A DNA stretch of 64,000 nt from a bacterium HR17 (GTDB taxonomy: Bacteria; Armatimonadota; Fervidibacteria; Fervidibacterales; Fervidibacteraceae), in NCBI GenBank assembly GCA_002898575.1, contig BEHT01000005.1:1-64000 (forward strand), written 5' to 3'. A program made the translations under genes and the position numbers. Positions within the stretch are counted from its first letter, which is position 1, and each line of letters starts with the position of its first letter. The notes beneath the pieces are model-generated. The model saw only the letters and a list, made by a program, of their open reading frames with translations. It had not been told where the DNA came from and ran no database searches. This document shows, piece by piece, positions 20,446 through 50,102 of the stretch.

Positions 20446-20547
20446 CCTCAAAGGGCGCGTCTCCTCACGCGCCCTTGCGGTTTTCATGTCATTTTTCAGC
20501 GGCTCAGGGGAGCCGCCCTCCGACCAAACCCCATCGTTCAACACAAC
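20446..20547. repeat. Palindromic repeat C (family 1, one MITE-type end kept)
   Basis: One family-1 module: an AGGGCGCGTCTCC arm with its partner, then CGGCTCAGGGGAGCCG and CCCTCCG. The right end has CCCCATCGTTCAACACAACA, a variant of the MITE right end. The left end keeps CTTTTCGGCA as in element B, but the terminal TGCTTTGTTGAAT has decayed. No target duplication is visible. Confidence 0.7.
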
Positions 20548-39551: not shown

Positions 39552-39580
39552 TTGACAAAACACCGCCGCTGCGTCAAAAT
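39552..39580 (+). promoter_or_regulatory. Probable promoter of the leader ORF and DAHP synthase
   Basis: TTGACA (39552-39557), a 17-base spacer and CAAAAT (39575-39580) form a good -35 with a fair -10. Transcription from near 39587 would leave a very short untranslated leader before the AGGAGGG site of the small ORF. Confidence 0.5.
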
Positions 39581-39604
39581 GTCAGGCGCAAGGAGGGATC
39601 GCAA

Positions 39605-39712
39605 ATGGAAGCGGCGATAGGTGTGGTAGTGCCTAAATGCAACGGTCGTGCTACCCTGCGTGCTTTTGACTTTGTGCCTTTCGTCGGCACCTTGTATTTT
39701 TGGCGCCGGTAG
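39605..39712 (+). CDS. Putative leader peptide of DAHP synthase, rich in Phe/Tyr/Trp
   Basis: A 35-codon ORF starts at ATG 39605, seven bases after a strong AGGAGGG site (39591-39597). Its second half reads FDFVPFVGTLYFWRR: six aromatic residues in 15, with Tyr31-Phe32-Trp33 in a row, the three end products of the pathway that DAHP synthase opens. The UAG stop (39710-39712) lies in the loop of a perfect hairpin whose 5' arm begins at the Phe32/Trp33 codons. A ribosome waiting for charged tRNA at these codons would cover that arm. The aroF start is 125 bases downstream. This is the layout of ribosome-mediated attenuation; no database match was possible here. Confidence 0.55.
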   Translation: MEAAIGVVVPKCNGRATLRAFDFVPFVGTLYFWRR

Positions 39713-39725
39713 GCACCGGCGCCAA
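39700..39725 (+). promoter_or_regulatory. Perfect hairpin overlapping the end of the leader ORF
   Basis: TTGGCGCCGGT (39700-39710), loop AGGC, ACCGGCGCCAA (39715-39725): an 11-bp perfect stem. The next bases are CCCCTCACG, so there is no U run and it is not a classic intrinsic terminator. It could pause polymerase, expose RNA to Rho, or act in RNA processing. Confidence 0.6.
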
Positions 39726-39837
39726 CCCCTCACGATGACCCCACACGATTAAACCATCATGACGCAACTCTTGTCAAGTCGTTATGTGACTTTGTCCGTC
39801 AAAATTCCCCCAAGCCTGAAACGGAGGTGCAGTGCAT

Positions 39838-40911
<1,074 letters not shown>

Positions 40912-40921
40912 GAGCGGCCGA

Positions 40922-40937
40922 TGTTTCATGTGAAACA
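40922..40937. promoter_or_regulatory. parS-like site 2 (between aroF and topA)
   Basis: TGTTTCATGTGAAACA, 38 bp after site 1. It is the same sequence as site 1 in the other orientation, 15 of 16 bases of the ParB-binding consensus. Confidence 0.78.
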
Positions 40938-41091
40938 TTACAGCGCTGCGGTCGGCAAGCCCCACCGACCGCGGCGCTGTTTTTCGCTGGCGTGCGTCAA
41001 AATAGCCCGTGCTCGGACCGCAGTGACTTTTAAAGGCGAGCCTCTCGCTTGAGGCAGCACCCTCCGTTCGTCTGCAGGAGGTGAAAAAAGC

Positions 41092-43570: not shown

Positions 43571-43586
43571 TGTTTCATGTGAAACA
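43571..43586. promoter_or_regulatory. parS-like site 3 (just after topA)
   Basis: TGTTTCATGTGAAACA, 14 bases after the topA stop codon; identical to site 2. Confidence 0.78.
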
Positions 43587-43614: not shown

Positions 43615-43630
43615 TGTTTCATGTGAAACA
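43615..43630. promoter_or_regulatory. parS-like site 4
   Basis: TGTTTCATGTGAAACA, 44 bp after site 3 and ten bases from the end of the epimerase gene; identical to sites 2 and 3. Confidence 0.78.
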
Positions 43631-49852: not shown

Positions 49853-50102
49853 GCCGATGTTCGGCGGCTCAGGAGAGCCGCCCTCCGAGGGTGTTGGAGG
49901 GCGCGTTTCCCAATGCGCCGATGTTTGGCGGCTCAGAGAGCCGCCCTCCGAGGGTGTCGGAGGGCGCGTTTCCCAATGCGCCGATGTTCGGCGGCTCGGA
50001 GAGCCGCCCTCCGAGAGTGTTGGAGGGCGCGTCTCCCGACGCGCCGATGTTCGGCGGCTCAGGAGAGCCGCCCTCCGACCAAACCCCATTATTCAACACA
50101 GC
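49853..50102. repeat. Family-1 palindromic repeats (H), about three modules and one MITE-type end
   Basis: Tandem modules with joining TGTTGGAGGGCGCGTTTCC and TGTCGGAGGGCGCGTTTCC. Hairpin-1 arms GCGCGTT/AATGCGC (one G-T wobble) beside GCGCGTC/GACGCGC. The right end has CCCCATTATTCAACACAGC, the MITE right end; the left end is missing. 50103-50207 holds nothing recognised. Confidence 0.85.

Follow-up and report, generated by a model that had tools for sequence, protein, structure and literature searches.

The locus in question lies upstream of aroF, the gene for a DAHP synthase, in bacterium HR17 (Armatimonadota, family Fervidibacteraceae), and it raises the question of whether a short open reading frame (ORF) there could let a translating ribosome sense tyrosine, phenylalanine and tryptophan together and set aroF expression accordingly. 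The window, that is, the whole stretch of DNA analysed, comprises 64,000 nt (assembly GCA_002898575.1, contig BEHT01000005.1, positions 1 to 64,000 of the forward strand), and all unlabelled coordinates refer to it. An earlier note, made from the sequence alone, had proposed that a ribosome stalled in this ORF prevents an overlapping hairpin from forming. A promoter, a Shine-Dalgarno (SD) sequence, an open frame ending in F-W-R-R-stop and a hairpin are common to four genomes of two genera, always before aroF, and the leader is in our judgement quite likely to be a ribosome-mediated attenuator of aroF.

Architecture of the aroF leader

The leader ORF starts at ATG 39605, stops at TAG 39710-39712, and encodes a 35-residue product, MEAAIGVVVPKCNGRATLRAFDFVPFVGTLYFWRR, with aromatic residues at positions 21, 23, 26, 31, 32 and 33. 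Its features were as the earlier note had described them: a 35-codon frame with a strong ribosome site, 125 nt from its stop to the aroF ATG (39838), six aromatic residues within positions 21-35, and adjacent Tyr, Phe and Trp codons. The very short 5′ untranslated region (5′ UTR) that it had also expected agrees with the promoter match, from which a 5′ UTR of ~17 nt, with the SD sequence still inside, is predicted.

The hairpin reads TTGGCGCCGGT-AGGC-ACCGGCGCCAA, and its 5′ arm encodes (F)-W-R-R-stop. Two details of the earlier description needed adjusting: the perfect 11-bp hairpin begins, more exactly, with the last base of the Phe codon, and of the stop codon only AG lies in the loop, its T being the last base of the 5′ arm. 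The hairpin is predicted to remain stable in the heat, with -14.7 kcal/mol at 60°C and -10.7 kcal/mol at 75°C. Folded as a whole, the leader has an ordinary energy (z -0.24), and the case is therefore built on the local hairpin and its conservation. Feature coordinates are collected in Table 1.

Table 1. Positions of the aroF leader elements and of aroF in the window
Feature	Position	Strand	Basis and remarks
Predicted promoter	39552..39580	+	-35 TTGACA 39552-39557, 17-nt spacer, -10 CAAAAT 39575-39580
Leader ORF ribosome-binding site (SD), AAGGAGGG	39590..39597	+	Sequence; AAGGAGGG also in G001 and G002, AAGGAAGG in G003
Leader ORF, 35 codons, ending TLYFWRR-stop	39605..39712	+	C-terminus conserved in G001-G003
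Putative sensor codons Tyr-Phe-Trp (TAT TTT TGG)	39695..39703	+	Amino acids invariant in four genomes
Perfect 11-bp hairpin, arms 39700-39710 and 39715-39725, loop AGGC	39700..39725	+	Once in each of four genomes, always before aroF
Spacer, C-richer, G-poor, untranslated, no U-run terminator	39726..39820	+	Candidate Rho-loading region, weak here
aroF ribosome-binding site, GGAGG	39823..39827	+	Sequence; kept in relatives
aroF, type I-beta DAHP synthase, 357 aa	39838..40911	+	NF006421 and TIGR01361 above cut-off

Conservation in related genomes

The region was compared with two genomes of the same genus (G001 and G002), one of the same family (G003, whose contig matches isolate SKYB36, JANXBO010000029.1), and one of the same order but another family (G004). 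Upstream of aroF in G001, G002 and G003, frames of 29-35 codons (MSSAADRKCIALKGNLSGAVFRSAFYFAFYFWRR, MGSDKNDDGRTISLPICFNFYFAFYFWRR and VLSGMVGADQKDSLVAGQVAPAFFVAFFAFYFWRR, respectively) are open, end in F-Y-F-W-R-R-stop, and carry the hairpin at the stop. A promoter-like element (TTGACA/TTGACG-17-CATAAT) stands at the equivalent place in these three genomes, and the promoter-like elements of the leader end 14-31 nt before the start codon. The distance from leader stop to aroF start is 82-125 nt across the genomes, and GGAGGTG ahead of aroF is kept in the relatives. In G004, neither leader ORF nor hairpin was found within 450 bp upstream of aroF.

Conservation within the leader is concentrated at its end. 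The only long invariant blocks in the DNA alignment are TATTTyTGGCGCCGGTAr and CCGGCGCCA; the amino acids of codons -2 to -6 from the stop (R, R, W, F, Y) are invariant in the four genomes, and codons -9 to -30 have zero residues common to all four leaders. The sole nucleotide change in the sensor codons is the synonymous TTT/TTC, while the stop varies between TAG and TAA. Arms of the hairpin are kept around loops of 4 nt (here), 7 nt (G001), 7 nt (G002) and 3 nt (G003), and the Phe wobble base forms a T-A pair here and a C-G pair in G003; in G001 and G002 it has no partner. Pairing of the wobble base in two forms, with loops of 3-7 nt between kept arms, is as for an RNA hairpin. Regions upstream of the promoters have no mutual resemblance among the relatives, and inspection by eye of the opposite strand there revealed a tRNA-like gene in G003 and a pilin-like gene in G001. 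The relatives thus display what the earlier note had proposed to look for, a short ORF, clustered aromatic codons and a hairpin conserved despite drift elsewhere, and in none of the four genomes is the frame broken while the hairpin is kept.

Frequency of the arrangement in the genome

The expectation by chance was assessed on 1.264 Mb (40%) of the same genome, consisting of the window and stretches L158-L177 and L232-L271, which contained 757 mini-ORFs 10-50 codons long and preceded by a strong SD sequence. F, Y and W codons within four codons of one another occurred in 1 of the 757, and a perfect hairpin of at least 9 bp spanning the stop likewise in a single one; both times it was the aroF leader ORF, and the same leader was found ahead of no other gene in this genome. 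A chance coincidence of ORF and hairpin was ruled out by this uniqueness together with the conservation in four genomes. The palindrome GGCGCCGG-N2-9-CCGGCGCC has a single site here and a single site in each of the three family relatives, its reversed control pattern does not occur in any of the four genomes, and the hairpin has no second copy in the window when as many as 3 mismatches are allowed (0 copies expected). With one hairpin copy per genome, a repeat element or a regulon operator was also ruled out. As a known RNA family or riboswitch the leader was rejected, the only Rfam match being FsrA at chance level (E 1.2), and for a T-box or specifier architecture there was no Rfam match in the leader region above chance.

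Inspection by eye of trpE upstream regions in this family revealed no aromatic leader. As for other amino-acid leaders, the 40% genome sample contained three candidates, all weak, in which Ser or Arg codons are clustered.

Two further palindromes were met in these sequences. A 10-bp hairpin, CGCCCTCCGAACCTCGGAGGGCG, recurs with variants in L172 (at 305, 577, 13779 and 13981) and in the window (49942-49966); with several copies within 14 kb, it looks like a dispersed palindromic repeat. The palindrome AGGGCGCGTCTCCTGACGCGCCCT and its variants (L173 5963-5988 and 15380-15403; L175 1950-1971; window 20451-20476) have GGTTTTC a few nt away and may represent a dispersed repeat, or else terminator-like elements of one family.

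Transcription termination and the spacer

The bases following the hairpin (CCCCTCACG) contain no U-run, as the earlier note had observed, and no U-run terminator was found between leader and aroF in any of the four genomes; terminator-like sites inside the leader ORF are only weak and about as many as expected by chance. The 1.264-Mb sample of the genome was scanned for hairpins with a U-run at gene ends, with genes taken as the longest non-overlapping ORFs, so that the counts are approximate: 7 of 473 gene ends had one, compared with 9 of 57 in E. coli K-12 by the same scan, and a stricter count gave 5 of 473 as against 2 in shuffles. The mean number of T in the 8 nt after gene-end hairpins was 1.76 (1.65 expected), compared with 3.09 (1.95 expected) in E. 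coli. Canonical U-run terminators therefore seem to be rare in this genome, and a leader without a U-run is in keeping with it. After aroF itself (about 40943-40985), a canonical-looking terminator is present, with a GC-rich hairpin followed by TTTTT.

Rho is present in the genome and in all relatives. The C and G contents of the spacer are 33 and 15% here, 41 and 7% in G001, 36 and 4% in G002, and 30 and 18% in G003, and the excess of C over G in G001 and G002 is beyond that of all intergenic windows of the window's genome (fraction as extreme 0.000). A secondary promoter after the hairpin was found in none of three genomes, and the fourth, G002, has a single weak match.

Two other ways of coupling the leader to aroF were examined by folding. 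A translational switch through sequestration of the aroF SD sequence was rejected, as its accessibility hardly changes between states, and so was an antiterminator, as no conserved alternative fold is found with the 5′ arm blocked. The expectation of the earlier note, that the mechanism would differ from classic intrinsic attenuation, agrees with the missing U-run terminator in all four genomes, the missing anti-hairpin, and the rarity of U-run terminators in the genome.

Proposed mechanism

The transcription start would lie ~7 nt past 39580, with translation of the leader ORF following at once. With charged tRNA-Tyr, tRNA-Phe and tRNA-Trp ample, the ribosome would reach the stop codon and leave, the hairpin would fold behind RNA polymerase, and most transcription would end before aroF. 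If any of the three amino acids were short, the ribosome would wait with its A site on TAT, TTT or TGG; its front would then lie over the 5′ arm and keep the hairpin from forming, and polymerase would continue into aroF. The switch would have two states, hairpin or ribosome, with no antiterminator, and the hairpin would lower expression most likely as a U-less or pause-type termination signal, perhaps helped by Rho on the untranslated spacer.

In E. coli, the ribosome extends ~12-15 nt past the A-site codon. The Tyr, Phe and Trp codons start at 39695, 39698 and 39701, and the earlier Phe codons of the leader at 39665, 39671 and 39680; with a reach of 12-15 nt, a ribosome stalled at the Y-F-W codons touches the arm, and one stalled at the earlier Phe codons would not. 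Judged by this anatomy, the Y-F-W trio would be the codons at which a stall can melt the hairpin. Of the stalled-ribosome switch put forward by the earlier note, the parts list (ORF, aromatic codons and hairpin) held up in four genomes, while translation, the effect of the hairpin, and the response to three amino acids stay at the level of prediction. We infer that the leader is translated, that it responds to starvation, and that expression is lost at the hairpin without a U-run. A response to all three amino acids is predicted, and the Corynebacterium precedent suggests that not all codons need act. The full model, in which any one of three adjacent aromatic codons suffices to throw a two-state switch that works without a U-run, by a U-less hairpin and Rho, is put forward only tentatively, at somewhat less than even chance.

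Several observations weigh against the proposed attenuator. The comparison covers four genomes only, of which three belong to one genus and two are 61-63% complete. No U-run follows the hairpin here, and among the relatives only G002 is T-rich at that place (TTCTTATGC). Only G001 and G002 have a spacer with a strong excess of C over G, the fraction of intergenic windows as extreme being 0.09 for the window's genome and 0.17 for G003, and the spacer would stay uncovered by a ribosome that stalls at the sensor codons. Blocking the 5′ arm brings out no conserved alternative structure, and access to the aroF SD sequence is about equal in both states. Finally, the C. glutamicum leader aroR is described as without response to Tyr (PMC11802643).

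Alternative explanations

The closest competitor leaves the attenuation in place and moves its centre to Rho: the hairpin would be secondary, serving for pausing or 3′-end protection, and the signal would be the C-rich spacer, on which Rho loads after the ribosome leaves, in the manner of tna. Rho in all relatives, the rarity of U-run terminators and the strong spacer bias in G001 and G002 fit this reading, and the same was proposed by Seliverstov et al. for cys leaders without terminators (PMC1262725). In the window's genome and G003, however, the bias is weak, the invariant hairpin arms are left unexplained by Rho alone, and so is the manner in which a ribosome stalled before the spacer would bar Rho. 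We regard this reading as possible, though on the doubtful side; we favour pausing or U-less termination at the hairpin, perhaps completed by Rho, over Rho acting alone, which explains the hairpin less well. Arrest by the nascent peptide is unlikely. Here the C-terminus (FAFYFWRR) would stall the ribosome in response to an aromatic amino acid in free form, in the way that TnaC responds to Trp, and charged tRNA would not be what is sensed. The last residues are indeed conserved in order, including an Arg-Arg pair without a sensor role; but W-R-R is already fixed by encoding the hairpin arm, the preceding residues are VGTL here as opposed to YFAF or FFAF in the relatives, and arrest by an end product would turn on a biosynthetic gene at the wrong moment.

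At least as improbable is a leader that senses no amino acid and only raises aroF translation by re-initiation or stabilises the 5′ end of the mRNA. A leader ORF and a strong hairpin are present, as this would need, and re-initiation has been put forward as something that leader genes do in general (PMC4833913), but the stop-to-start distance is 82-125 nt, aroF has its own strong SD sequence, and neither function gives a reason for Y-F-W to be conserved exactly where a stall would cover the arm. The least credible of these explanations takes the palindrome as a DNA operator for a TyrR- or TrpR-like repressor within the transcribed leader, with the ORF incidental. The arms are perfectly conserved and palindromic (GGCGCC core), but with one site per genome there is no regulon, the spacing of the centre differs by 4 bp among the relatives, which a dimer operator would hardly tolerate, and the ORF frame, SD sequence and aromatic codons are conserved as well.

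aroF and the DAHP synthase complement

One DAHP synthase, aroF, was found in the genome (a distant type I-alpha enzyme was not sought with a model of its own). No class II enzyme was found, and a second homologue passes the cut-offs for KDO-8-phosphate synthase (KDO-8P synthase). As only this DAHP synthase was found, one enzyme would therefore feed all three aromatic amino acids. In E. coli, by comparison, there are three DAHP synthase isozymes with separate controls. If the proposed attenuator is real, a single leader would adjust the sole DAHP synthase found to the supply of all three shikimate end products. It would also show how attenuation can work where U-run terminators are few, which bears on what ends transcription in such lineages. 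A hairpin arm built from the sensor codons is about as compact as attenuators get, and would make an attractive biosensor part.

The 3′ end of aroF holds the first of four exact copies of a parS-like 16-mer, TGTTTCAYRTGAAACA (40884-40899, 40922-40937, 43571-43586 and 43615-43630; 0.08 expected with up to 2 mismatches), which form two pairs, one around the end of aroF and one after topA. They are probably ParB-binding sites.

Comparison with known attenuators

Breadth was examined in 177 stretches upstream of DAHP synthase genes, from 60 relatives in 29 families and from named GTDB genomes of other phyla. Only this family and one genome of another Armatimonadota family (G055) showed a promoter and an SD-preceded ORF with clustered aromatic codons; the G055 leader, MSTRQLRQVGGYWAWRFYFASGAHRLA (L147, G055:C749:9350-9950, minus strand), precedes a DAHP synthase gene. 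It has perfect -35 and -10 elements (TTGACA-17-TATAAT) and then two canonical U-run hairpins, as in a textbook attenuator. Its peptide (YWAWRFYF; GGYWAWRFYF) is unrelated in sequence, and what it shares is an aromatic leader and a sigma70-like promoter; to judge from these sequences, aromatic leaders before DAHP synthase genes apparently have two or more separate origins among these relatives. A full-text literature search found no paper treating leader-peptide attenuation in Armatimonadetes.

The E. coli leaders pheL, pheM and trpL have a U-run terminator and a competing antiterminator, and each senses one amino acid. Shared with them are sensor codons in a short leader ORF and a hairpin after it; in all four genomes an SD-preceded leader ORF lies between promoter and gene and carries clustered, in-frame conserved codons for the end products of the pathway, whereas the U-run terminator and the mutually exclusive antiterminator are lacking. 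Because these two defining classical features fail, we propose to keep the leader outside the trpL/pheL class, though it would work like a ribosome-mediated attenuator.

In the Actinobacteria ilvB leaders, runs of regulatory codons overlap a hairpin (PMC1262725), so that, as here, regulatory codons lie in the hairpin and one leader serves several amino acids of a pathway; those hairpins are followed by poly-U and sense branched-chain amino acids, in contrast to the U-less, aromatic hairpin here. Mycobacterial cys leaders, with sensor codons near the stop, no U-run terminator and proposed Rho sites downstream of the ORF (PMC1262725), lack a conserved hairpin, whereas here it is strictly conserved.

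Closest in gene context are two leaders of aroF itself. The C. glutamicum aroR leader (Phe-Tyr-Phe) was reported to respond to Phe, with no Tyr effect (Neshat et al. 2014, as reported in PMC11802643; PMC4046766). As described, it too is a small ORF that precedes a DAHP synthase gene and has its aromatic codons clustered, and ribosome-mediated attenuation is reported for it; its cluster is without reported Trp, and C. glutamicum has two DAHP synthases as against the one found here. In Acholeplasma, an upstream ORF (uORFC-13-1) with promoter, ribosome-binding site, Phe codons and an adjacent intrinsic terminator, which the earlier note did not mention, precedes aroF (PMC8632094); the present leader shares the first three before a DAHP synthase gene, but has no U-run, has a hairpin that overlaps the last codons, and adds Tyr and Trp. 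Aromatic leaders of the aroF type are thus already known from C. glutamicum and Acholeplasma.
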